DNA of 64,000 nt, taken from assembly GCA_022579005.1 (NCBI GenBank), contig MU401454.1:620001-684000 (forward strand), in the 5' to 3' direction. The notes under the pieces are model-generated. The model was not told the DNA's origin and searched no databases. It saw only the letters and a list, made by a program, of their open reading frames with translations. This DNA is from Poronia punctata (Eukaryota; Ascomycota; Sordariomycetes; Xylariales; Xylariaceae). The position numbers and the translations under genes were made by a program. Below are positions 3,001 to 64,000 of this stretch, piece by piece; positions within the stretch are counted from its first letter, which is position 1; the number at the start of each line of letters is the position of its first letter.

Positions 3001-6000
3001 GTATCTGCCTAACCTACCTGGGTAAACTTGTACCTCGTCTCATGTATGTATCATGTATGTATTTACGGGGTCGCTTATTCGGAATGATAGAGTAGACCCA
3101 ACGCACTGGGTGTCCGTTTTCTGAGTGGTCGCCTGATTTACGCCGCAGAGAGGGAGTATGCAGATTTAGTATCACCACATGGTAAGTATATATATATTAC
3201 CCCGAAGTAGATAGATGTTGGGGTAGGTTGAGGGGAGCATTGTCCGTGTATGAGTATAGACTTTCTATGTACTTAGTTTTCAAGATAGTTCCATATCAAG
3301 CAAGTGAGATGTAGGGATAGATGTAAGTAAAAATCTGTACGTGTATGCAGCTAAGATGTACACGTAGGGCATAGGGTTACATCATGTTAGCTGTTTGTTG
3401 ACAAAACGGTAGACTTCAGATCGTCACTTGTCATAATAGAGAATAGCTACTCGTAGACCCTTGAAAAGAACACGAACAGGGTGACACGCGAATGTCAATC
3501 ATGACCCCCGAGGTTACAGCACAGCAAACCAGGTAGTTGAGGATTAGCGTCACGCTAGGAATTGACTACCGTACCATGTAACCGACCAGCTTACTACTTA
3601 CCTAATCCGAACATGTCGAATCCAAAGCCTAGACTACCTACATAGGTACTTAGCCAAAGCATGCAAAAAACAAGGCATTTGATTGAATTGCCGTAGACTA
3701 GGTAAGTAGGTAGAACGCCACAGGAGATAAACCTCACTTTATCGGACTTTGGTAGACAGGGCTATACGCATAAATTGAGAATACGATGGCGTGGGGATGG
3801 GAAATGGTCATGTACTTTTTGAGAATACGTGTTCCCTCCCCCCCAGAATATCACGTTGCGTCCCCGTTGCGTTTTGTAACCCAGGTGACCCAATCCCTGA
3901 TTTAAGGTCTCTTTCCCTTTCCCCCCCGTCTGTTGGGATGTACGATAGGTTCGGTAAAAGTCTGCCTATCCATCCATATGCAATGCATACATAATATCGT
4001 AATGAAAAATCAGCCCTGTGATACGCACCATCCCCAGTAATACTAAACCAGGAAGATCATCTGTTTTTCCCATTCTTGTCACGCAGTATTCCAGGTTTAA
4101 ATATGATTCGCACGTAACCCATGACTATAAAAAAAGAATACTAATTGTCCGTCCCCTAGACTAGACTAAATTCTTACTACTTTCCTGATATAAACATGAG
4201 GAAGTACGAGTAGATAGACTCTGCATGCGATCAGCGCTGTTGCGGAACAACAAATAGATCGACAAACATTTTGCGTCTCGCTAAAACGTGTATATATTTT
4301 TACGACAGCTCTTTTTCTATTCCCCGAAATATACTTGACCCATGGTTGAGATCTTTTCCCTTTTATCGTAGCTTTCGGTGTGTTTTGGTCTGTCTAGGTA
4401 CCTTGGCCTCTCCTGAGATAAGAGGGGAACCGGTAGATAGGGGACCTGTCTCCTTTTTTACTCGTCAAAACTCCAGGCCCTACAGGTACTCTTCTTCTTC
4501 TCTTGCCGGTTTTTCCATTCATTGCCCGTTGGTTCTTTCCATGTAGGTAGCATAATAAACTAGACTATATTACTCGTAAGTCAGCTTGGCCGGTAATCCC
4601 CTTCTAATAATATAATTACGTGCGTACTATCTATCCATCTAGCGTTGACCGGTGAAGACTCTCTAGCCCAAGTAGATACAGTCTATTTATTCCGGGGTAG
4701 ATGAATCGCCTAACCTAAGGTAGGTACCGTAGGAAGTAAAAAAATGACCGAAAAAAGAAAACTTTTGATCCACGCATAAATACAACCTCCATCTACACAC
4801 CGTAGCCCGAGAATGGGAATCACATTGCAGAATGGCATTTCCTGGGTGCCAAAGCGCGAAATGTCGATCCCATTTCCCGATCTTCCCTTCCCTTCTCCCC
4901 CACCGTAGGTGTTCGTCTCGTGTGCCAATTATTTCCTAGTCTGGTCGAGAGAGCCTCACTTTTTTTTATTTTTTTTTTAAAAAAGTCTTTTTTTCGCTAA
5001 CGGCTCCGGCTCCGAGGTGCCAGGATCTTGGTTATTGCTCCCCAGGTACCTACTTTACTTACCTACATGTAGCTAGCCGGAATCAGGGGTAGGAAATAGG
5101 TAAATGGCAAGGGGAGAAACAATCCAGGTAGCTGGCGCCACATAAATCCGCATAGAGGAGTACTTACGTGTAGATAAATTGTTACTAGGAACTTGGAAGG
5201 GAGTAAGCGACGCTAGCGCTAATAAAGTAACCCTGGTGGGGCTTGGTACGTACATGCTCTAGTCTAGCAGTTGTAGCTCCTGCCCAGAACCCTGCCAGCC
5301 AGTTCAAAGATAGGAGAGAGCTACCTCTAGACTATAAACATGTCGAATTGGCCCTTGCCGGCGGCCTTCGGCAAAGCAAGTGCGACTCGTCCGGCTGGGG
5401 CATGGGGTGTGGGGTTATCTACCAGAGTCTCGCGACGGTGATAATAATAATCACTGCTGACTTGTATTCCCGAATCCTCGGCTAAGAAGTAGGTTGGAAA
5501 CGGGATAGCCTTCCCTCACTCATCCATGTCGCAAAGGAACTTTTGTCCGTCACCTGCGTGTGTGCATGTATATAGTCGTAACTTGTAAGATCATGCTTGG
5601 CTCAAATTTGCCCGCTCTAACCTCCAAGTAACTACGTGGAGGCGTCTGTCAAGCTTGCATTCGTTCATGGTAGCGTCTAAGGGGCTACCCAAACCAACCT
5701 CGAGACCTCAGTGACCCCCAAGAACAGTAGAGGGTAAGAATAAGAATGAAAGGGCCCAATGTAAGAAATAAAACCTAGTCCCTGCCTGTAGAACGAACGT
5801 GCCAAAACCCCCCCACACCCTACCAATGATGACTATTACCCCAAAACAATGACAGAAACCTCGCGGTGTAAAAACAAAAAGACCAGTAACGACTGAAATG
5901 GTCAATATCATCAATACTGATACCATAATCCCGCAACGCTTTCCCATGACCCCAGCCTAGTAAAGGCGTAAACTCCCATTATCCGGCGCAATACATTGGT

Positions 6001-11384: not shown

Positions 11385-14383
11385 TCACTCATCATAACGA
11401 ACACTAAACGCAGTGGTGAGAGCAGTATCGTAATCTTTGGGGCTGTCAACATCACCAAAGATATGCAAGGCCTCGATGGACAGCTTGTAAGTGCCCTCGG
11501 ATACATAACTGCCATCAGCCAGGCGGCCGTCAAAGGCGGTATAATAAGGATCACGGGATGCATAGTCGTAAGGCGAATCGAGGATGTCGCCCAGGTTTTC
11601 TGTCGAGTTGCTGCCATTGATTTGTAACAGTTTGATGCTGATACGGGGCGACCCAAAAGCCATGAGTGCAACCGCGACAGGCAGGGGGGCATCAGCGTTG
11701 GGATCCTTGGTAAAAGTAAAGGACGCGTTGCCCGTGATAGGGCTTAGACCAGGATCAGTCGAAATCGAAAGATATCCCTCGTCCAGTACTCGAGTGCCGT
11801 ACAAGCTACCAACAGCACCGTTGTACGGCAGCGACAGGTTCTCGCCGTTGGTGCCGTTGATGGTGATATATCCAGAGTAAACCGGGAGGCGCTTTGCGTC
11901 CAGAGCCGGAGGCGTGACGGTTACGGAGATGACGGCGTGGCCGCCTGGAGGCACAGTGATGCGCGATTTGCTCAACTTGATGGTGGCGTATTCATCGGTC
12001 ACTTCGAGCCCGGGGAATAGGTCCGGGTATATGTCGTCAGAAAACGTATACGCGGAAGCTGCGCCGACTGATCCCAACTTATAGGTTACCGCTCTTCGAC
12101 CAAGGTTCCTCACGGTAAAGTCCAATGTGCGCTCCAGGTTATCAGTATCGTTAAAGGCCAGGTATGATTTGCTGAGCAAGGTGGTGGCGTAGGCAGCATC
12201 ATAAGCTTGAATGAGGCCCGCTCCGACTTGGGCCACTGGTGCGAGGACCCCATATGTCTCGTTACCGTCATTAAACAGTCCAGGGTTGGCTGTAGATGCT
12301 ATCAGGTTCTCGAGCGTGGCAGGATCAAAGGTACCGCGGACTTCGGCAATCAGTGCATAAATGGCCGCGACAAGCGGACAGGCCATCGAGGTACCGGATA
12401 TGATAGCATAGGAACCGAGGGTCTGAGGCCACGTCGATAAAATATTGCCGCCTGGCGAAGCTACTTGCGGTTTGACGTCCATCTTAAACGTCGGACCCTA
12501 ACTAGTATAGGTACTGGCTGCTCCGCCTGTGAGGGTATTATCTGAAGCCGCCAAACTGAATCTTGTAAGCTTGTTTTGTGCCGGACTAATCAGGAGAGGG
12601 TTTCTTACGACAATGGGGCAGTTTCTGGGTCGGCCATATCGAGAATAACGTCGGAGCCAGCAGCAAGAGACTCGACCCACGATTCACCCTGGGATGCCAC
12701 GACCTATGACAAGCGGTCAGCACGGTTTAATCAATTTCGGGGGTAGCATATATGAACGGACCATCCCGACGGCTATCAAAGCCGTCACTTCGGTCACAGA
12801 AGCAGCCAAGGCCCCACTTGGAACGTTGTTATAGAACATGACATATTCGGCCCCTGCATTGGCGGCGTTGGTAGCTTTGTCGGTGAACAAGCAGTCGCCA
12901 CGACGAATGAGCACGATTTTGTCGGAGAGGTCCGGAGTGTCTGACGGATATGGCGTACAACCCATGGAAGGATCCGTGATATCGAAGCTCGGAGTCCACA
13001 GGGGAAGTTTCACCCCCGCCCATTCTGAGGGGTCGCCAACCACGTAACCAAAGGTTTGGTTTTCGCCCTCATCGATGTTGAAGGATGATTCGGTCAGCAG
13101 TAAAGGGGTGACCCAGTTATCGACGGAAGCGACCGAGGTTACCCGCTTACCGTTCGAAGCCGTGCTGGCGTAGAACAGACCTGCCGCACCTGCGTTTCCG
13201 GCCGACAGGGTGCAGGGTACACCGGCCTCGACGATCCTAGATACGACAACCGCCCAGGGGTCCTCACTCCAGCCGGAAGAACCTCCAATAGATGCGGTGA
13301 TGATGTTGGAGCCATCTTCAAAGGCTTTTAGGTACGCGGCGATCAGGACATCATTCGCCGCGCTACCGGTGCAGCCAAATACGCGGTACATGCCGAGAGT
13401 GACACCGGGGGCGGCACCAGTGAAGCCGTAGCTGTTGGACTGGGCCGCGATGATGCCGCTGACATGACTACCGTGGCCGGCACAACCGTCGTAGGGACTA
13501 TGTAAGCCAACATTAGCTTTCGACACTGGGGTGTGATGTTTTTAACCTATCCGATAATAGGGCGAGCTTACTCCTCATCAGGTACGGGAATGTTAAAGCC
13601 GGTGTACTCGTCACCGACAATATCGGAACCATATGAAACCAAACAACCCGGACCAAAGCAACCTCCCAAAGCGGGGTGGGTATAATCTACGCCGGTATCG
13701 ATGACACCAATTTTGATCCCCTTGCCAGTAATACCCTTTGCTCGCAGTTTATCCACCTGGGTCATCAGATGAGGAGTAAAAGTGTCGTTGGTCAATGGCC
13801 TTTTTTTCATGTTGCCAGTAGCGTCCTTGATCTTGCCCGTCCAGACAATTTCATCCTCGGGAAGATGGTAAACACGATTCTGCCAGACTCTTCTCACGCT
13901 TGGGAGGGTCGAGAGCGTCGAGGCCTTTTCTTCGGCGGAATCAACATCGTGGAACTGGATTGAGGCCCCCTTGAAAAGAGAGGAGCCAAAGGTCACTAAA
14001 AGATAATCGGTTAGTGACGCCTTTTATGAGCACCACCTCCTTTGTAGCCGGAGATATAAGATGTGCTTTCGACGAAACGAGATACCAGAAGACTCCGTCT
14101 CAGGACTAAAATCCCAAGACGACTACTCACTGCGCGTGCTTGCTGATGAACCGATATGGTTGAAAAACTCGGCAGAATCCTATTCACGCAGCCACTTGTC
14201 AGGGAGGATCCATCAGTGACACTATTCCAGGATGGAGAAACATACATGAGAGTCATGGAATTCAACCACATAACTGCCCGGGACATGGGTAGGATTTGCC
14301 GTGCTGGGAGACTTTCTCGCTTCTACTGATAATAAACCCCCGGTGCTCGCCAGCAGCGAAAGTAACAAGTTTCGGCCAATCAT
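11385..14383 (-). pseudogene. Secreted subtilisin-like serine protease with PA domain, frame broken by TAG
   Basis: S8A family protease of the fungal Vpr-like type. Frame-consistent exons (minus strand): 14383-14246, 14179-14131, 13995-13572, 13497-12762, 12703-12609, 12555-11385, giving 871 codons. Residues 1-22 are a signal peptide, then an I9 prodomain beginning GSYVVEF, Asp162 in VIDTGVDYTHP, His212 in AGHGSHVSG, oxyanion Asn in SAGNAG, a PA insert (DLSDKIVLIRRGDCLF), Ser537 in SGTSMACP and a C-terminal Fn3-like domain. Codon 500 (12500-12498) is TAG where relatives have Trp of the SWGPT motif. A product ending there would lack the catalytic Ser and be inactive. Everything after the stop remains in frame and conserved, so the lesion is recent, a sequencing error or bypassed. 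Splicing out a 51-nt GTACCT...CAAG segment would also remove the stop, but would delete the conserved motif. The donor of intron 4 (GTCCGT) is unusual, and the acceptor of exon 6 could be 6 nt earlier. Confidence 0.8.
12498..12500 (-). other. In-frame TAG in the protease coding sequence
   Basis: Reads TAG in place of the expected Trp codon TGG between STYTS and GPTFKMDVKP. On the opposite strand the change is CCA to CTA, a C-to-T transition at CpA, the preferred RIP context. Confidence 0.75.
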
Positions 14384-30185: not shown

Positions 30186-33100
30186 ATGGAGTCTTACTTA
30201 CCAGGTCGTGGCCTACAAGTTGGCCTCGGACGTCGGCTGAGCAGGCTATATGACGACACTAAGAAGTCGTCCGACTTTGTCCAGGAGCCTGTACAGCCGG
30301 CCGACGATCCTGAGATCAAGGCACTTCATCGTAAACTACGTATTCAAAAGGACAGATTCGTTAGCTGGGGCTTGGAATGGTCCGACTCGAACCAATCGGC
30401 CGAGATAGATGAGTCCCTCAACGAAGCCGGCTTGACGAATATTGTCATGAGCATCATGGGCACCATCAAAGACATCTTGGCCGAGGCAGAACCTCTCTGG
30501 CTGGCCTCGAGAAGGCCATCTGGAAGCGAGAGGGCGTCAGAAAAGGCGCCCGCAGACCGCAAGATAAAATGGGACAAGGGCCGGTTCGAGGATCTTGTCA
30601 AGGACTTGACAACCTCGATCGATACGCTCTGCGACCTATCCCGCACTCGGTCATCTGTGGCCATGGCTGCAGGTCTTTCAGGAGAGACGACGAAACCGAA
30701 GCAGTCTATAGAAGATATGCGGCTTTACGGATCCACGCGGATACGGACGCCTAAGCAGGTCGATCCCAGAACACTCACGAGCCTTGAGTCAATACCAGGA
30801 CCGCCTTTGTCCGAACCCGAAGGCCGCCAAGGCCGCCAAAGCCGCCCTCAAGAGGTTTTCTTTATGAACAAGAAAGATTATACGGAGCTTACACAACGAC
30901 CTGCTGGACAAACCTGGTCTCCTCTCTTGGTTGAATACGCCGACTTTGATCCAATCTACTCTGCCACAGGAGTCATGCCTGAAATGTCTAGATTTGAAAG
31001 ACTGAGCGCCGGTCTGCAGTCGGAATCGTCAAGGTTGCCTGGAGCTTGGATCGGTCTACCTCTTCTCCTGGGTTATTACGAGGACATGGCTCTCTCTAGA
31101 TTGGCCCTAGTCTACTCATTTCCGCCCACCTTCAAGCCGGTAACCTTTGAAAACGAAACGGAGCGGCCGGTAGATAATTTGTGCACACTGACTAACCTGC
31201 TCAGTCGGCCGGACTTCGAACCAACGCTGGAGGCCAAGTTTCGTCTGGCCTATAATCTAGCAAACACCGTGTTCGACATGCATTCGCGGGGCATCACACA
31301 CGGGAATCTCAACGGGTCGGCAATCTCTTTTACTACCTCGGGCCACTCTACCTCCACCTCTACATCAGGCTCGACAGGCGTGAACGAGGTCGATATACGT
31401 CATCCACTGGTGTCCTCTTTCGATATCTTCTCCAAAACCTCTTCGACTAGTTCCAATACCTCTGCTTTCCTGTTACACCGACATCCGCTCGACCCCCGAA
31501 CCACCAGTCAGTCCCCGTTGGCTTCTAATAGCGAAACCAAGTCATTGGACCTCTATTCGCTTGCCATGATGCTCGTCTCAATCGGTCTATGGACTGCACT
31601 AGAAAATCTCGCCCCCTCTTCCGACTCGCCAGGCATCCCAGAATCAGTCCTCGGCCAACTAGCCATCAGGTGTGGCACGCCTTATATGAGGGCTGTCCAG
31701 GCCTGTTGGAATGCGGTTGATCTCGAGCTTTCTCGGGAAGACCAGGCCGACGAAATCATAAGACAAGTTCAGATTAGAGTGGGTGGTTATCTCGAAGCCT
31801 GTTGCATACTGGACGGCGTCAGTGGGCTTGATGATCGTCTCGGTGAAGATATCCTCCACTTACCTCCTCGTAGAGGTCGACGCCGGGCCGCACTTGGAAG
31901 CCCTTCGGTTGATTTACATTTGGCTTATCCTAGTGTCCTGACACGTGGAACTTCCTCTTCTTTGGCGTTACCACAACAGCCTTCGCGTAAGACACAGGAG
32001 GTTTATTGTACGAAGTCACTGTTCTTCCAACTTTTGACTAGTATTTGGCTGACATTTAAGTAGTGACACCGGAGAGCAGCAAACTTCAGGAACCGAAAGA
32101 TGAACTCAAAGAGAAGTCGAAAGATGAAATCAGAGAGAAGCCGAAAGAAAAACCAAAAGACAAGCCGAAAGACAAGCCATCCAAACTTCGATTATATCCC
32201 CAGATCCCCCTACCCAGCCACATAGTCCAGCAATGGAACGAGATATTAATGCCGCAGATCAATATGGCTCTGAAACATTTTTACCGCAAAAACCCAGAGT
32301 CGGTCGAGATCTCGCTCGAGTCCATCGGCGAGTCACCACAGAAGACGACTCCTACAGTATTAGTAGTGTGCACTTCTGTCAGTAAAGTGCGCGCTATATT
32401 GATGAAGAAACTTGGCATCCTCTTCGACGGGACCACGACAGAAATCTCGCTCAAAGTATGCCGGGGCTCTATGGTGCGGTCAAGAAAAAGTCCGAGGCGT
32501 AGTATGAAAGGGAGCGACAGGCCGGCCACACCCCGTCAACAAGAAGACAATGGCCCCGGCGGCGACGAGGAGACACCGGCGGCTAATCCGGATTACCAGG
32601 AGAAGCCACAGAATGGGGCCAGCATCGGGGCTTGGATCGGAAACAAGCATCTGCCACCCGTAAGTCTAGGAGGCGTCATCATCGTAGACGACAAGCCATA
32701 TGGTATGACGGTACACCACATGCTCGACGACCCCGAAGCCCCCTTTCAGGCTGCCGGTAAATTCCAGGGGTCATTAGAAGGCGCAAAACGAGCCAACGCA
32801 TCTACTTTCCGAAGCAGTGCCGCATCACAAGGTCTTCAATATCTTGTCGAAGGCGACATCTCATCCGAAAGTAGCGGAGAAGACTTTGCCTGCGAGTTCT
32901 CCGATGACGAGTCCGAGTACTCCGTCACGGATCTTACGAGTGATGACGAGGATGAAGACGAAGAGGAAGAGTTTGACGAGCCGGGCGATATTCCCGGGAT
33001 AGAACCAGGATGTGGAGATGGTATGTGAAACTGTAGGACCAATAAACACGCTTAACCCCCTCTGTTGTACTGTTGAAGGTTGAAGGTTTTTTTTTTTTTT

Positions 33101-34238
33101 TTTGACTTGGCTTCGAGTCGAGTGCTTGTGGAGGTGATATATGGCGATGAAATTAAGATGAAGTTCGCCTTACTGATGTTGTATTGTCCAGGTTATATCG
33201 TAACTCAACCAGCACTTGATGATGTTCCTGAAGGGTTCTACCCGTCGTCGGAAACCGAAGACGAGGTAAGTTAAAACAGCCTCACGAAAATATTGCCTGT
33301 CCGCTAGGCTTTCCTGTTCCTCGTTCCCCTAGATGTATGATCGTGGAGTGCCGGGATCGCAAGATGCTAAGTACTTGATGTATAGGACCACATTGATACA
33401 TACAAAGTCGGCGAAGTCTATGCCTCTTCGGGCATAAGAAGAAGAATGGAGAACGACCTCGTCCATGAAATCGACTGGGCCCTATTCGAATTCCAAAACG
33501 AGAGAGTTCCCGAGAAGAACGCTTTCCCTCCAGTCTCGGCCGACTCCCATCCAGCCACTCCTGGTCATCTGCAGCCCGTAGAGGTGGCCCCGGCAAAATC
33601 CTTGCCTGGACTAGACGTTCAATGCATGGCCCGCACAAGCGGTTGTCAGGTAGGTTTATCGCCGGAAAACAAAATTAAAACAAGCAGCCTCAAACTAACA
33701 GACAAAACCTTAGGCCGGTCGAATCTTACCCACGCTCGCATCAGTCAAAATCTACGGACGCACCTCCCCAAGCCACTCATACCAAGTAAGCGGAAGAATA
33801 CCGGGCATGTCAAAACCAACCACCCCACCAAACCAAGCCACCAGACGCGAAGTATCTCTCGGAATACCCGGCGACTCGGGCGCCTGGGTCGTCGACATGC
33901 TCTACGGCCGACTATGCGGCCACATCCTAGCATGGAGCGAGCGGAAACAGGTAGCCTACATCTGTCCAATGGACGTTCTCCTCCTCGACATTGCCCAGTC
34001 TCTAGAAGCGACAGAGGTACGATTACCTCATGGTGAGGCCATCGTTTCACTTGACGATCATCATATGATTGAGGAAGAGGAAGAGGAAGGTTGGGAGGAT
34101 GCAAATGAGAAGATGCCACATTTATTGCACCAGCATTATGGCACGGAAGGGATACTTGCACCACGTGGGGATGAGGAACACTTTATGTCGCAAATGACGA
34201 CGCTGGAGAGGGATATGGAAAAGGTGCATTTTGGATGA
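30186..34238 (+). CDS. HeLo-like / pseudokinase / trypsin-fold protease fusion protein
   Basis: Five exons join in frame: 30186-31986, 32064-33020, 33192-33265, 33386-33649, 33714-34238, encoding 1206 residues. Residues 1-155 are helical and resemble HeLo/HET-S-type domains ([15 protein letters not shown] near 52-66, [14 protein letters not shown] near 128-141). Residues about 235-560 resemble a protein kinase fold: [31 protein letters not shown] in place of the catalytic HRD, and [17 protein letters not shown]. The glycine loop and HRD are absent, so it is a pseudokinase. A Lys/Glu/Pro linker (602-640) leads to a region with His819 in TVHHM, Asp974 in EIDWALF and Ser1087 in GIPGDSGAW, the order and motif of a trypsin-like protease. 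Residues 885-915 are strongly acidic. HeLo domains drive membrane-targeting cell death in fungi, so a death-effector role is inferred, not shown. Intron 1 (GTAAGA...GCTGAC...TAG) is what links the kinase-like and protease halves; without it they would be two genes. Confidence 0.75.
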
Positions 34239-54925: not shown

Positions 54926-55140
54926 CCAATTAGAAGGCTACAGGTGTTGGAGACAGCCCCCTTAGATAAAGGGGTTGGATAGGATTAACCTGTTGGTTCT
55001 ATGTTGCATGCACTTGTAGATACGAGGTGCGGACTCCCTCTGCACAAAGAAAATAAAGACTGCCGATCTCTAGCTAGGGATAAGAATAAATAGACCTGTA
55101 TTCCCTTAAGGGCTTAGAAAGGGACTTTTTCCTTATAAAC
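54926..55140. other. Transition segment between truncated MFS gene and AT-rich block
   Basis: Base composition is still balanced here. A TGTTGGAGACAG sequence at 54945 resembles the start of some LTRs (TGTTGG), but I find no matching CA end, direct target duplication or second copy in the window. The region could be a fragment of an element that escaped RIP or unrelated DNA. Confidence 0.3.
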
Positions 55141-56582
55141 CCTTTTAGCCTATATAAAATTATTAAATTAAATTAAAGCTATTCCTACTTTTAAGTTGCT
55201 ATATTAAGCCCTTTATTATAAATAATTCTATATTTTTTATAAAGAAAAACTTTAACTTACCTAGCCTAAGTTATAAAACTTTAGTTTTTTATTTTACTTA
55301 TTATTTATATTTTTAAAATTTCCTACTAAAACTATTGCTAATAACGCTTTTTTTTTTTTAACTTTAGTTACTAGCAGTAATAATAGCATTAAGTTAGTTA
55401 GTTAAAATAAAATAGATTGATTTTAAGATCTAGGATAGCTGTTAGTAGCTAGAGCTACTTTATAAAGATGCTTAAAGCACTAGTTAGCAATTATATAACT
55501 ATAGGTTATATAACTAGAAATTTTTTAAATTGTTTAAATATACTATATTAGTTTGCTCCTTTTAAATAAACAAAATAAAAAACGTCCTTATTTTTTTATT
55601 AATAAATAATGCAAAGCTGTTTTATATTTTCTATTAAATATTTTTTATAAGTAATATTAAGCTATGTTTTGCAAATGTTACTTGCAAATATTGTTACTTG
55701 TAAATATTGTTTTTATCTTATGTTTATATAAATTAACGCATATATAAATAACTTATATTTTCTAGCTTTGTATTGTATATTATTTGCTAAAAAATAATAA
55801 TAAGCTTGTATTATTAGCGTTGTTATTTTAAATTATAATTGTTTTTTAAACTGTTATTTATTGCTTTACTTTTTTGCTTTTATTTAAGTTTGTATCTTAT
55901 TTAGCATTATTTTTTTGCTAGCTTACAATGTTTTTATAGTTTTTGTTTTAAAACTTAAAGCTGTTAATTTCTTAGCGTATTTTTTAAACGTTTGCTTATA
56001 GTTATATTATAATAGTTTATATATTGTTAATTTTCTATTACAACTTTTTAATTTAATACTTAGTCTTTTATTTAAACAATTTAAAAACTATAAATGCTTA
56101 GTTAATAATTGCTATTTTTGCTATTTGCATTGCTATATTTTTAACGCATATAGCAAAGATTATATTTTGTATTATGTTTACTACTTAAGTTTATATTAGT
56201 TTGCTGCAAATAGCTTTTTTAAGTTTATATTTAATTTTTTTGTTTACTAGCATGTAAACATAGTTATAGTATTTTTTAAAGCTAGGTTTAATGTTTTTTA
56301 GTATTTTATTAAGTATTTTTTATTTTTTAAAATTATTAAGTTTTTTTTTAAAAATGCTGCTAAGCTTGTTTAATTTATATAATACTAACAAAGTTTTAAA
56401 TTTGTTTATTAATTTAGTAAATAAATTATTATAGTTTTTAAGTTTATTTAGTTTTTTAAGTTGTTATCTTTGTATATTTAGCTTATTTTATAATTTATTT
56501 TTTATATATTTTTTTTTAAACGCTTTAAAAAATGTTGTTTTTATAGTATTTGTTAGCATTGTTATACTAGGCGTTGTTTAGT

Positions 56583-56750
56583 TAGCTATTATCTATATAA
56601 CTTTAAGTGCTAGGTTTAATAATAATAGCATTGTTATATTAGCTATTACTTATATAACCTTTAATGCTAGCTTTAATAACGATAGCATTATTATATTAGT
56701 TATTATTTATATAACCTTAGTTGCTAGCTTTAATAGCAACAAAATATTGT
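56583..56750. repeat. Three tandem 57-bp units in the AT-rich block
   Basis: Units start near 56583, 56640 and 56697, each beginning TAG(C/T)TATTA and sharing TATATAAC and GCTAG(C/G)TTTAATA. The period of 57 is a multiple of three, so the repeats may once have been coding. They differ mainly by transitions. Confidence 0.6.
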
Positions 56751-58699
56751 TTATTATTTATAAAATTGTTATTAATAATAACTTTAGATTTATAGGTAAT
56801 AAATACTATAGTTTGTTTTATATAGATATATTTGCTATTTATAAGTTTAACGCTTTTAATTATAATTAAAATGTTAATAAATTTAAGCGTAAGGTTTTTG
56901 TTAACTTAAGGATTAATATTAATATATTAGTTAGTATTGTTATTTTTAGTAATATTTCTTTATATTTAAGTTTTTATTTATTAGCTTACTATTTTTAATA
57001 TTATAATACTTATTTTTATATAAGATTATAAAGTAACTAAATAAGTGCTGTATTTTATAATATTTGTAAAATTACTATTAGCATAGTACTTATGCTAAGT
57101 TAAGTATTTTTTATAATTTTAAAGGCTTTAAGTTTTTTTAGTTCTATTTTATTAACAATAATTTATACGTTGTTTGCTTAATTTTTGGCGTTGTTAGCAC
57201 GTTTAACTATATAAAGTAGTTTTTTAGTTATTATTTATAGCTAGTTATTAAATAGTTTGCTTTTTAGTTTGCATTATATTAAATATAATATAACAATTTC
57301 CGGTTATATTTATAGTTTTAGTGCTATATTTTTAAAAATATTCTGCTAGTATAAAAGTATAGTTTAATAAACGTTATATTTTATCTTATTAATACTATAT
57401 TAGTTAAGTAAACATAATTAGCGCTAAGTTTTATTGTTATTTGCTACTTTTAATATATTAAAAAATAGCTTATATAGGTGTTTAGTATTGTTATATGTTA
57501 TATTGTACTGTTTTTATTATTAAAGCATAACTTATAAAAGTTTTGTTTATAAAAAGTTGTTATTAAAAAACATAATTATGTTTATTTAAATAAGTAATAA
57601 CAAAGTATATAATTAAAATAAAAGTAAATAATTAAAAAAAAAGAAAACGTTAAATAGCACTTTATTATATTAGACGCTTAGTGCTATTGTTTAAGGTTGT
57701 AAAAAAAAAAAAAAAATAGCTAAAAATATAAAAAAAAAAAAATGTTAGTATTTATAAAAAGTGTTATATTTAATATAAAAAAAAGCACGTTTAGTTAGTA
57801 GTAAGTAACTATACTTATATATTTATTTTAAGTATAATTTATACTAGCTTTTATTTATTTAATTATAAGTATAGTAGCAATTTAAATATATTTTTAGTAA
57901 GTTTGTTTGTTGCTTTGCTTTTTAGCTTATTAAGTAATAATAGGTATATTATATTATATTAATAAATTAGCTTAAAGGCATTTTATATAAGGATTTTTTT
58001 TAAGTACTATATATTATATATAAGTAAATACTTTTTTTATTTAATTAAATATTTTAGTATAGTTTTTTAGCCGGCTTTTAAAATTTGTTGTTTAAAAAGT
58101 TAGTTTATTTTAAATAACTTTTATTGTTTATTATTTCTATTTATATATACTTGCTTTAGTTCTAGCTTATGTTAAGAGTATAAGTTAGTTTTTTTAAGCG
58201 CTAAATATAAGTATATAATTAATATTACTTAATAAATTTTTTAGTATTTAAAAAAATTTAGTTTATAAGCTAAATTATTAACTTTTTTAAGTACTATAAA
58301 AAGTTTAACTTTTTATTATAACTATTTTTAGTATAGTTTGCTTAGTAAATTATATTTTTTATATAGTTTTAAGTATACTTTGTTTTTTATATTATATTTT
58401 TAATATTATTTAGTTTTGTTATATTTAATTTTTATATTAGCTATAGCAAAGTTTATAGCAATTTAAGCTTTTTTTTAATATAGCTATTTAGCAAGCTTAT
58501 AATTAATTACGTTTTATAAAACGTTTATAATAAAAATTAGATCTTATAGCTTAAATCCTAGTACTACTTTGTTAAAGAAGCATTTAATAGTTTTTTAATA
58601 AGCGTTATTTAGTATATGTTAAAAAAGTATAATAATAAAAATTTATAAAATATTTAATGCTATATAATAATAGCAAATAGTAATTTTAATATTTTAGTT

Positions 58700-59050
58700 T
58701 TTTTTTTTAAACTATTTATTAGTTTGTAAATAATATGCTGTAAATTTAAATAACTTAGTAATTATTTTAGCAAATAAGGTTTTTTAAAGTTATAAAATAA
58801 ATTTTAAATCTTTATTTAAAATTATACGTAATAATATTTTCTATTTATAAAGTATTAATATTTTAATAATAACTAGGCCTTATTTAGCAGTTGTATACTT
58901 AATGTTTTTTAGTATAAAGATTGTTTTTTTGCTAAATTTGCAAATAATAGTAAGTAAACAATTATATATGCTATAGCTAAGTATTTGCTAAAAAGTTTTT
59001 TATAATAATACTGTTAGCATTTTTATAATAAAGTTTATAGTAATTATATA
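58700..59050 (-). pseudogene. Remnant of retroviral-type integrase core
   Basis: Minus-strand translation contains RIILNKDLKF, matching the second-Asp motif of gypsy integrases (RVILSDRDxKF) after transitions, followed by a Trp/Phe-rich helix pattern. Many stops interrupt it. Confidence 0.6.
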
Positions 59051-59094
59051 ATATAAAATATTAAAGGTTGCTATTAGTTTTATTAATTTAAAAA

Positions 59095-59240
59095 GCTTGC
59101 TTTTATTTATTTTATTAATAAAATATTGTAAATAGTATACTAAATATTGTTAAATATGCTTTATAAGGTTATATATATAATATTTTTATAGTATATTTGT
59201 TATTTAATAAAACTTAAAATAATAAGCGTTATTATATGCT
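59095..59240 (-). pseudogene. Remnant of integrase zinc-binding domain
   Basis: Minus-strand reading AYNNAYYFKF...KYYIYNLIKHI.QYL fits the H-H...C-C integrase N-terminus of fungal gypsy elements once His-to-Tyr and Arg-to-stop transitions are allowed. The zinc ligands are lost. Confidence 0.5.
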
Positions 59241-59754
59241 TTTTGTAGTAGGTTTTATATGTAATTTTTAAAAATAACTAGTTATTTTAGTGCCTTATAT
59301 AAAGTATAATATAAAAAGCTATTTAGTATTTTTTAAAATTTAAATTTTAGTTTAGTATTTAAACTAATAGCTTTTAGTATTTTAGTAGTTTGTTTGTTTT
59401 TTTAATATATATTAATTAGTTTTGTTTAAAAAAAATTTATTAGCTAAATATTATATATTAAGTATACGTATTTAAATATAATATTATTTAGTATATTAAT
59501 ATTTTTGTTAGCTTTTTTATTATTATTTTTGTTTAGTGTTATAAGTAAGCATAATAGTGCGTTAAGCACTAAATTTACTTTGCTTAGTATATAACAAACG
59601 TTAAGTTTATATTGTTTTATATATATTAAAGCTTATACTAAATAGGGATTTATTTTAACTACGTTTATTATTATAAAGTTCTTTTAGTTAATAATGCTTT
59701 TTATAGCTTTATAATTAATTAAAATAATAATAAAGTATTTATAAAATTGTAATT

Positions 59755-59860
59755 AAAGCCTAAGCTGTTTACAAAGCTAAACAAAGCATAATACTTCTAG
59801 TTTTGTTATATAATATTGTTTTTTAGCTTTTATAAGCACTTTGCTAAAATATATAATAAG
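59755..59860 (-). pseudogene. Remnant of retroelement RNase H
   Basis: Minus-strand reading YFSKVLIKAKKQYYITKLE matches the FxSRxLxxAExRYxxTExE signature of gypsy RNase H, with stops at former Trp/Gln codons. Confidence 0.6.
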
Positions 59861-60344
59861 CTATACATTGTTTATTAATATAAAACCTCTTTCCTATAGC
59901 TTTTTTAAATAAAACACTATAACTTTATAGCCTTTTTTAGCTAAAGCATTAATTTTTAAAAAAACCTGCTTATTATAGTCTTAATAAATTAAATAGTTTA
60001 ATTTACATAAGTTGTTTTATATAATCTAAAAGCTTTAAATTTTTTTAGCTATTAAGTTAAAAAATTGTTTAAAAGTCTATTTTTTTTTATTTATAACATT
60101 TTTTTTTAAGATTTCTTTTTTTGTACGTCTTTTTACTATTATTTTTGTTTTCTATTTTTATAAAAGTTTAATTTTTTATTAAAACTACAAAATATATTTT
60201 CTTAGCTATATTATTATCTTAATATAAGTTTTTAAGTTTTTTAAGGTTTATAATATTTTAATTTTATATAAAGCTTTTATATAGTACTTAGTTATAGCTA
60301 TTTTTAAGCTATTAACTTATAAACTTAATAATTTAACTATTAAA

Positions 60345-60655
60345 TAGCTATAAAATAATTTAGTTAGTAATAGTATAAGTTTAATATTTTAAAATAGTTA
60401 AAGTATAGCTTTTAAGTATTTATAGTGTTTTTTTACTATATTGCTAAAAATAACAATATTGTTTATATAAGCATAGCAGTACTTATAGTAATCTTGTAAT
60501 TATTAGTTTATAAATTTTTATTTATATACTAAACTGTTTTTAAATTTTATAAAAGCAACACTTAAAACTTTTAATTTTTTTAATAATATAACTACTATTT
60601 TGTTTTTATAACAAGTATATATTAGTAACTAGTAAAAAAATAAAGTAGCATTTAG
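60345..60655 (-). pseudogene. Remnant of Ty3/gypsy reverse transcriptase
   Basis: The minus strand reads NATLFFY, then FIKFKNSLVY, then AYINNIVIFS followed by KKHYKYLKAIL. These match the NATSFFYQW, GFKNSPAY and YIDDIVIFS blocks of fungal gypsy reverse transcriptases. The catalytic YIDD is now YINN (GAT/GAC to AAT/AAC), so the enzyme is dead. Stops replace former Gln and Trp codons. Confidence 0.75.
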
Positions 60656-63600
60656 TACTATTATATATTTTTTGCTTTTAAAATTAAATATAATATTTTT
60701 TTAAGCTAGTATTAAATAAATATTTAATATTATAATATTGTTTAAAAAGCAAAGGTTTATTACTACTTATTTTTTATGCTTGCTTTTAATAATTTTTTAT
60801 ATAATAAACACTAAATATTTAAATAAACTTAGCCTTTATATTTAATAAAGCTTTTTTTATTTATAAAGATTATTAAATATATTATTTAAGATTTTTTAGT
60901 TTTTAATTTTAAGTTTATATAATCTTGTTTATTTTTACTAGTGTTGCTATTTTTAAATAAAGTTAATATATAACTTTTTATTTTTTAGCATAAAAATAAT
61001 ACTTTTATTATATTATATATTATAGCTTTTAAGTATGCTTTTTAGTTTTATAGCTACTTTAAGGTCTTTTTAAAATATATAGACGTTATTTTTTAATAAA
61101 ATAAAAAAAATATGTTCTACTTTTATTAGGCCTATTTTTATATTTTGTTTTTTTATTAGTTATAAGGGTATTTTGCAGTTGTTAGCTAAAAAGGCAGCCT
61201 ATGCTTATTTAATATGCTTTATATTAGTTTAAAAAAACAATAAGATGTTATTTTTTAAATTAAACTTTTTTTTGTTTATTTTATATTTAATAGTAGCTAA
61301 AAATGCTTATAAACTTGTTTAGTAAACTATGTTTATTTTATTAACGTTTAAGTTTTTAATAAAACTAATATATAGGTTTTTATAAAAATAAATAGGTTTA
61401 TTTATATTGTTTATATATATAATATATTATAGTAACTTATAGTTTAGTATAGCGTTTATTAGTTTTTATATTGTTATAGTAAAAGTATATTGTTTATTTT
61501 GTTTTAAATAGTAGCTAGAAAAAAGTGTAGTATATAATATTAAAATTAGTACTATAGTATATGCTAAAACTGTTATATTTATTTAAACAATAACTTTTTA
61601 TTTAATAAAAATATACTTATAATATATATTAATAAGTATTATTATATTAGCTACAAATTTAATATATAGTTAACGTTGTAAAATGTTTAATATAACTATA
61701 TATTTATTAAACTATAGTATACTTAGTAACAATTGTAGTTTAAGGTTTTAGTAAAGCTATGTTATAATTATTATATAAACTTTTATATTAAATCTTATTT
61801 ATAATAAAATAGGAAATATAGCTTTTTATTTAAGTTAAATAGATTTTTTTATACTTTTATAACATAAAAAGATAAAGACTTTTTAAGTTTTATAGTATAT
61901 TTTTATTTTATTTAAAAAATACTAGCTAACTATAATGTTAAATATTTTTAAGTTAGCATATATAGTAAACATATTTTTTTAGTTAAAAAATCTTGCTATA
62001 ACCTTTATATATATATATTTTAAAAGTGCTTTTTGTTTATAAACCTATATTAGTTTTATGTTTATACGTATTTTGTTTTTAAGTTATATTTTAGTATTTA
62101 TTATATAAAAAACTTTACTATTTTTTAATTGTTTTAGGAAAATGTTTAAATTTAGCACGTCTTATATTATTAGTTATTAGTAGTTAAACAATAGAACTTT
62201 TAATAAGGTTTTTAATAAAGTTTTTAATAAAGTTTTTAATGTTTTATAAGAATTTTTTATAATATGCTTTATATATTAGTTATAAAATAAAAACAGTTTA
62301 TAGCATTTTTTGCATATTTTTTTAAACTTAAAAGCTAAAAATAAAAGTTTAATAGTTACTAGGTTAAATAAGTAAGCAGTATTGTTTTAATTGTTATTTA
62401 CTTTTATAGTATTATAAGTGCTTTTGTTTTTATTATTTAACACTTTTTTTAAAAGAAAATATTTTTTTTATATAAGCTTTATTTTTTAAATTTTTTTATT
62501 ATTTTAATTTTATATAACGTATGCTTTGTTAACTTAGTTATTAAAACAACGTTTATTTATAAGTTGTTTAACTTATTTATTTTAACGTTAGCGTTAATAT
62601 TTATAATTACTGCGGGGATTTTTATAACTACGTTTATAAAAGCGTTAACCTTAGTACTTATTATTTTATTTTTATTAATATTTATTATTTTGTTTTTTAA
62701 AGCTAAAACGTTTTCTTTTGTTTATTTTGCTAGTTGCTTAATTATTTTTATAATACGTGCTTTATTTTTTATTATAACTTTAATTATAGCTTTTTATTTA
62801 ATAATTGTTATTGTGCTATTTTTTAGCATTATAAATATAAGTAAAAGTAAGTATATATATAGTACTAAAAAGTTTTTAGTTAATAAACATTTTAAGCTAA
62901 ATAATTATACGTTTATATATTGTTGCTTTTTTTTTTAAATATATAAAGTAAATATTAAGTATAGTGTTTATATTTAGTTTAATAATTAGCTATTAAAGTA
63001 GTAAGTATACTATATTATAAATTTGTATTAGCTATTAAATAAAAGTAGTTAGTCTAGCTGCTTTAGCATATTATATTATTTTAGTAGCTTATAAACAAAT
63101 TAATTTATTATTTTTAAGTTTTTTAGCGTTATAGTAATTTTTTTAACTATAAAAAGCTATTAAAACATTTACTATAAGCATTTAAAATTGTTAACGCAGT
63201 ATTATTAGCGCTAGGTTGTTATTTGCTAATATTAAAGTATATAGTTTAAAAAAACATTTTTTTAACTACTAAGCTTATATATTGCTATAAAGCAATTATA
63301 AAAAATCTTGTTAAATTACTTTAGCTCTTGTTAAGTTTTAAAAGTGTTTTTTAATACTATTTTTAAATAGTAAAACGTTTTTTTAGTATATATTTATTTT
63401 AATAGTAACGTAGTTACTTTATTTAAAAAACGTTTTTATGTTTAAATAAAAGTAGCTTATTTAGTAGATCTTTTAGCTATAAAAAAAGTTATTATATTTT
63501 TTTCTTTTTTAGTTAAGTTAGTTTTGTTAGTTAGCTTAATTTTATTAAAGTAAATATAGTATTTAGGCTATTATTTTTATTATTTTAGTAATATTGTTAG

Positions 63601-64000
63601 TTTTTAGTATAGCTATTTTATTTTTATTTAGTATTTTTAGTACTAAATTTTATATTTTAAGTAGTTTAATAAGTAGTGCTTTTAATAGCTTAATAAAAAG
63701 TAAGTATAGTTTAGCTAGTAGTTTAGCTAATTTTTTTGTTAATAAAAACGTTGCTATTATATTTATTAAATAAAAAGCTAACGTTTATTAAGCTAAATTT
63801 AGTGCTAATAGTATAAACAAACTGCTATTTAATAAAGTTTAGTTAAAGTTAAATATAAAAAGCCTTTGTTTAATAAGTATATATTATTTATTTAATAAAG
63901 TATTTTTACAGTTTTTAGTATATAACTATACTACTTAGTTGTATAGCCTGTTTACTTTTAACTTAAAAGTTTATTTATTTATTTGCTAGGTTATAAAGTA

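Follow-up and report, generated by a model that had tools for sequence, protein, structure and literature searches.

The signalling protease SltB of Aspergillus nidulans (AN6132) is a chain of 1272 residues in which a linker that is not conserved joins a pseudokinase, devoid of the VAIK, HRD and DFG motifs, to a trypsin-like protease; it has been reported from Pezizomycotina only, and its describers found no protein in which the C-terminal part stood by itself (PMC4557415). SltB cleaves itself, freeing the pseudokinase prodomain (PMC11011638), and processes SltA from 78 to 32 kDa (PMC11011638, PMC5541321, PMC5193415), a cleavage pathway demonstrated by others in A. nidulans that acts in the response to cation and alkaline pH stress (PMC4557415, PMC11011638); the sltB null mutant is stress sensitive (PMC4557415). 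Also open to comparison are MLKL and the fungal HeLo/HELL executioners, in which a HeLo domain is followed by a pseudokinase; rice NARROW LEAF 1 (NAL1), for which TOPLESS-type corepressors are the substrates reported in plants (PMC12915138); and yeast Ssy5 (MEROPS S64), a nutrient-sensing protease of trypsin fold that signals by cleaving a transcription factor.

The window, a stretch of 64,000 nucleotides from Poronia punctata, carries on its forward strand a gene (30186-34238) whose five exons, when joined, hold a single frame open throughout for 1206 residues and a stop, bearing out the four introns by which the initial annotation had linked the frames into one predicted protein (Table 1). 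That annotation knew of no described fungal system of this architecture; SltB matches it (PMC4557415). In both proteins the pseudokinase, linker and trypsin-like protease follow one another in one chain of some 1200-1270 residues, the VAIK, HRD and DFG motifs are missing, and the His and Ser of the protease are conserved. Finer landmarks also correspond: a spacing of 14 residues separates Ser1142 from Gly1156 in SltB and Ser1087 from Gly1101 here, Gly1101 being invariant in all 190 full-length relatives (those of at least 1000 residues among 324 proteins in the matches listed, 134 shorter ones being dropped), and the SltB protease block 1136-1194 falls at the same offset on residues 1081-1139, conservation declining at about residue 1139 in the 120 relatives compared among the matches listed. 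Since the comparison with AN6132 was made through its published description, orthology is argued from architecture and these landmarks, and on that footing the gene is almost certainly the P. punctata orthologue of sltB.

Table 1. Features of the sltB-like gene, in window positions
Feature	Positions	Strand	Remarks
Exon 1	30186..31986	+	residues 1-601
HeLo (PF14479)	30306..30644	+	residues about 41-153; Pfam match, predicted helices (model m99ef59cefa1f)
Pseudokinase	30756..31850	+	residues about 191-555; kinase fold predicted; DUF7580 match under cut-off
Variable linker	31851..32182	+	residues 556-640; interrupted by intron 1
Intron 1	31987..32063	+	GTAAGA...TAG
Exon 2	32064..33020	+	residues 601-920
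Alpha/beta part preceding trypsin fold	32183..32602	+	residues 641-780; predicted, model of relative P0125
Trypsin-fold protease domain	32603..34007	+	residues 781-1130; introns 2-4 inside; predicted, model of relative P0125
Catalytic His819 codon	32717..32719	+	
Variable acidic loop within protease domain	32738..32977	+	residues 826-905
Intron 2	33021..33191	+	GTATGT...CAG
Exon 3	33192..33265	+	residues 920-944
Intron 3	33266..33385	+	GTAAGT...TAG
Exon 4	33386..33649	+	residues 945-1032
Asp974 codon	33473..33475	+	likeliest catalytic Asp
Intron 4	33650..33713	+	GTAGGT...TAG
Exon 5	33714..34238	+	residues 1033-1206 and stop
Catalytic Ser1087 codon	33876..33878	+	GDSG

The two genes differ in their introns, the single intron reported for sltB (nt 3413-3480; PMC4557415) lying at another codon than any of the four here; a HeLo domain, recognised in the P. 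punctata protein, goes unmentioned in two texts on SltB (PMC4557415, PMC11011638). A genome search with the orthologue P0003 found one locus in the same genome at E ≤0.01. Two species looked up among the best 120 matches belong to Sordariomycetes and Leotiomycetes, full-length relatives thus occurring in two classes; the record of one relative, P0248, assigns it to a metagenome-assembled genome of Rickettsiales, probably through fungal contamination. AGGCA sites, the target of SltA, are not enriched upstream: 3 lie within 1 kb, a number reached in 86 of the 216 background windows; five within 1.15 kb have been reported for A. nidulans. Taking these data together with those that follow, we put at roughly 93% the probability that the gene is an sltB orthologue encoding a C-terminal intracellular signalling protease, with a HeLo-pseudokinase prodomain as its regulator and SltA as its target.

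The N-terminal region had been described as helical and HeLo-like, and this description holds. The Pfam HeLo profile is matched above its cut-off (E 4.8e-6; 27 bits against 23.2) from profile position 34 of 205, the match beginning at position 13-21 in some Leotiomycetes relatives, and the domain was found in 39 of 39 relatives scanned. The fold-search lists for the model that contains it were filled by kinases, so it is the profile, with the predicted helices, that argues for a helical bundle. Ahead of the match lies a polar, strongly conserved stretch (window 30231-30290, residues 16-35). The same genome has a second HeLo gene (L006, G000:C56:98256-98822), with kinase-like sequence after it.

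The kinase-like region likewise agrees with its first description, as a kinase fold lacking HRD and the Gly loop: the fold is predicted, and the HRD Asp is absent from 187 of the 190 full-length relatives and present in 3. No Gly within residues 191-255 reaches 90% conservation among them, from which we conclude that the Gly loop is missing. At residue 252, taken as the position of the beta-3 Lys, none of the 190 has Lys, which occurs at residue 253 in 4; the DFG position mostly reads S-F-D-x-F. Not one of the 85 linker positions (residues 556-640) reaches 97% identity.

A HeLo domain followed by a pseudokinase is the order seen in MLKL, and the initial annotation had proposed an MLKL-like sensor/effector controlled by the attached protease. 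As an executioner, such a protein would permeabilise membranes with its HeLo bundle once freed by the protease or by relief of a pseudokinase brake. This is very unlikely, although several observations accommodate it: a review records that some fungal HELL domains share a protein with a kinase or pseudokinase (PMC12881547), SltB is reported to shed its prodomain by cutting itself (PMC11011638), and an amphipathic basic helix that might act on membranes is possible at the N-terminus (residues 13-30, hydrophobic moment 0.57). Against it, a search of the N-terminal 45 residues in 189 relatives showed no hydrophobic helix of the HET-S type: the best 19-residue Kyte-Doolittle mean there is 0.79 and the maxima average -0.19, values judged against the usual cut-off for such helices and not against a known HeLo killer as control. 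Most allorecognition genes are not conserved at a single locus, unlike this gene, which is conserved and has one locus here. No NLR or gasdermin match appeared among the 20 window ORFs scanned, a subset of the genes in the window. The phenotype of the A. nidulans null mutant, stress sensitivity (PMC4557415), lends the idea no support. Unlike the executioners, moreover, the P. punctata HeLo-pseudokinase is fused to a protease, and the SltB pathway is one of stress signalling. The cell-death role first suggested thus finds little support, and signalling through SltA, the role described for SltB, remains the preferred reading.

Among the matches of the window ORFs are a cyclin, a BIM1-like protein, a ferric reductase, an arginyl-tRNA synthetase, a P450, a TPP enzyme and a subtilase; the last, on the reverse strand at 11388-13541, about 17 kb from the SltB-like gene, consists of pieces of an S8 protease with PA and Fn3-like domains. 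At the far end, 55000-64000, is an AT-rich block (GC 0.165) with the signature of repeat-induced point mutation, its TpA/ApT ratio being 1.50 against 0.85-0.92 in the rest of the window and its (CpA+TpG)/(ApC+GpT) ratio 0.46 against 1.02-1.10.

The proposed protease, with His819, Asp974 and Ser1087 in trypsin order, is upheld by a predicted trypsin fold and by conservation of the triad in 189 of 190 full-length relatives, P0315 having an alignment gap, and in all 124 C-terminal sequences. Within residues 781-1130, Asp is kept in at least 188 of the 190 at positions 822, 909, 929, 930, 974, 1086 and 1124. Asp974 is the likeliest third member of the triad, because it stands in trypsin order and in a hydrophobic stretch, and falls in a block alignment on an Asp of NAL1 which we take to be that protein's catalytic one. 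For SltB the choice was left among Asp1037, Asp1046 and Asp1049 (PMC4557415); residues 971 and 977 here being His and Leu, Asp1037 would fit best if A. nidulans keeps these neighbours, a mapping that is tentative because the Asp then expected at +12 meets Pro in 189 of 190 relatives. Sequence searches of solved structures and of NCBIfam each gave a single irrelevant match (E 0.41 and 0.19), and the former otherwise none.

The fold predicted for the C-terminal module, modelled in relative P0125, is closest to rice NAL1 (Foldseek ranks 1-33), and the resemblance extends to the part that precedes the trypsin fold. The P. punctata protein has no significant local sequence similarity to NAL1, and neither HeLo nor pseudokinase is matched in the piece of NAL1 scanned. 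A link at the sequence level was sought in several ways and rejected: the Pfam profiles NAL1_N and Nal1_C, both of which match rice NAL1, have no match in the family proteins scanned; the sole hhalign hit spans 27 columns at the RTSG motif, with a probability of 2.9% and, for a single comparison, E 0.016; and hmmsearch gave 1.2 bits, equalled or exceeded by 3 of 500 shuffles, its best stretch being again the RTSG motif (E 4.4). An ordered block alignment brought the triads into register and gave NAL1 a higher score than 1984 of the 2000 shuffles, a result that counts as weak support because one block was skipped, another fell elsewhere, and the blocks were picked after the resemblance had been seen.

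That the protein might instead be the Pezizomycotina counterpart of Ssy5 is more improbable still. The logic of a protease cutting a transcription factor is comparable, the SltB authors report weak similarity (PMC4557415), and rice NAL1, to which the predicted fold is closest, has a weak S64 match of its own (E 0.0025). Against these points, single scans of 22 distinct family proteins gave no Peptidase_S64 match (E up to 1, 1, 10 and 0.1), S64 is absent from the four families matched by 39 members (E up to 0.01), and the only S64 match in the same genome lies elsewhere, under the cut-off (C283, E 0.08). In their account the SltB authors state that there is no evidence of homology or of a role in amino acid use, and found no shared pathway partners (PMC4557415).

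Met stands at position 1 in 118 of 120 relatives among the matches listed. The deposited P. punctata protein, P0001, has 1236 residues and 98% identity to the predicted 1206-residue model; the 30 differing alignment columns all lie at introns 1 and 2, where P0001 has 7 and 23 extra residues, and elsewhere the two are the same. A donor at 32008 fits, by eye, the 7 added residues. At intron 2, 12-23 residues are added in six of the 190 full-length relatives (P0001, P0003, P0009, P0021, P0025 and P0031), five of these sharing an EVI stretch, and no insert of five or more residues is present in the other 184; with so few carrying extra residues, the boundary chosen in the initial annotation is the common one. 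Judging from the sequence, either acceptor of intron 2 may be used. The A. nidulans gene is alternatively spliced, at another intron (PMC4557415).

Pairwise alignment of 11 relatives, one of which (P0139) its source labels as low quality, brought out the HeLo/kinase portion together with the protease in a single protein in 10, the exception, P0213, aligning over 631-1146 only; these gene models support the proposed joining of the halves, which most likely form one protein. Among 120 shorter proteins listed in a search with the protease, 84 start at or beyond residue 640 and 35 within the linker, P0139 being by this count the only one with a clear lead into the kinase, while further ones also open with kinase residues. 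These shorter proteins have the appearance of fragments of this one gene and not of independent proteases. The relatives P0064 and P0084 stop at residue 920, the site of intron 2 in the P. punctata gene, as would be expected had they been called with the introns ignored. No other arrangement of the protease was seen among the matches listed save in one relative, P0258, whose C-terminal tail matches a C2H2 zinc finger (residues 1178-1200; E 2.8e-5, just under the cut-off), which may reflect a gene-model fusion. Wrongful fusion of two adjacent genes, one for the HeLo-pseudokinase and one for the protease, is hardly credible, and so is an isoform that keeps intron 1 and consists of the HeLo-pseudokinase. 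The frame does stay open through intron 1 until an in-frame stop at 32061-32063, and gene models disagree on splice choice there and at intron 2; against these readings stand the occurrence of both parts in one protein in 10 of 11 aligned relatives and a length of at least 1000 residues in 190 of the 324 among the matches listed.

By analogy with A. nidulans, the single-chain SltB orthologue would work as follows. The trypsin-fold domain would be the intracellular signalling protease and the HeLo-pseudokinase front half its prodomain and regulator; under cation or alkaline stress the protease would cut its own chain and the prodomain be shed; the freed protease would then cut the zinc-finger factor SltA to an active short form, and this would drive ion-homeostasis genes and sltB itself. 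The earlier suggestion of a protease that releases the attached front half accords with the auto-proteolysis by which SltB frees its pseudokinase prodomain (PMC11011638). We infer that the P. punctata protein acts like SltB, and that its HeLo part either contributes to keeping the protease inactive or locates it at membranes.

The HeLo domain in the prodomain and the NAL1-like predicted fold of the protease look new relative to published accounts of SltB. The available text of PMC4557415 has no mention of HeLo, HET-s, prion, four-helix, MLKL or NAL1, nor that of PMC11011638 of HeLo, HET-s, MLKL or NAL1, and among the titles and abstract openings found, a scope that excludes subscription literature, none links SltB with HeLo or NAL1.

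With a HeLo domain, the SltB prodomain has an MLKL-like layout. It could be that SltB is a two-way switch, self-cleavage freeing not only the SltA-activating protease but also a HeLo-pseudokinase fragment of this layout that acts on endomembranes. We consider this doubtful; it would explain why two sltB mutations, as reported, suppress vps defects with cation tolerance unaffected. If true, it would tie an MLKL-type module to stress and trafficking, and not to cell death alone.

What had appeared to be a new cell-death protein is thus most probably a known stress-signalling protease whose likely substrate, SltA, can be named. To the described SltB the locus adds three testable proposals, namely the HeLo domain in the prodomain, the NAL1-like predicted protease fold and Asp974 as the most probable catalytic Asp, a choice left open for SltB (PMC4557415); and because the SltB prodomain bears HeLo, the layout of MLKL would be in use by a conserved fungal stress regulator.
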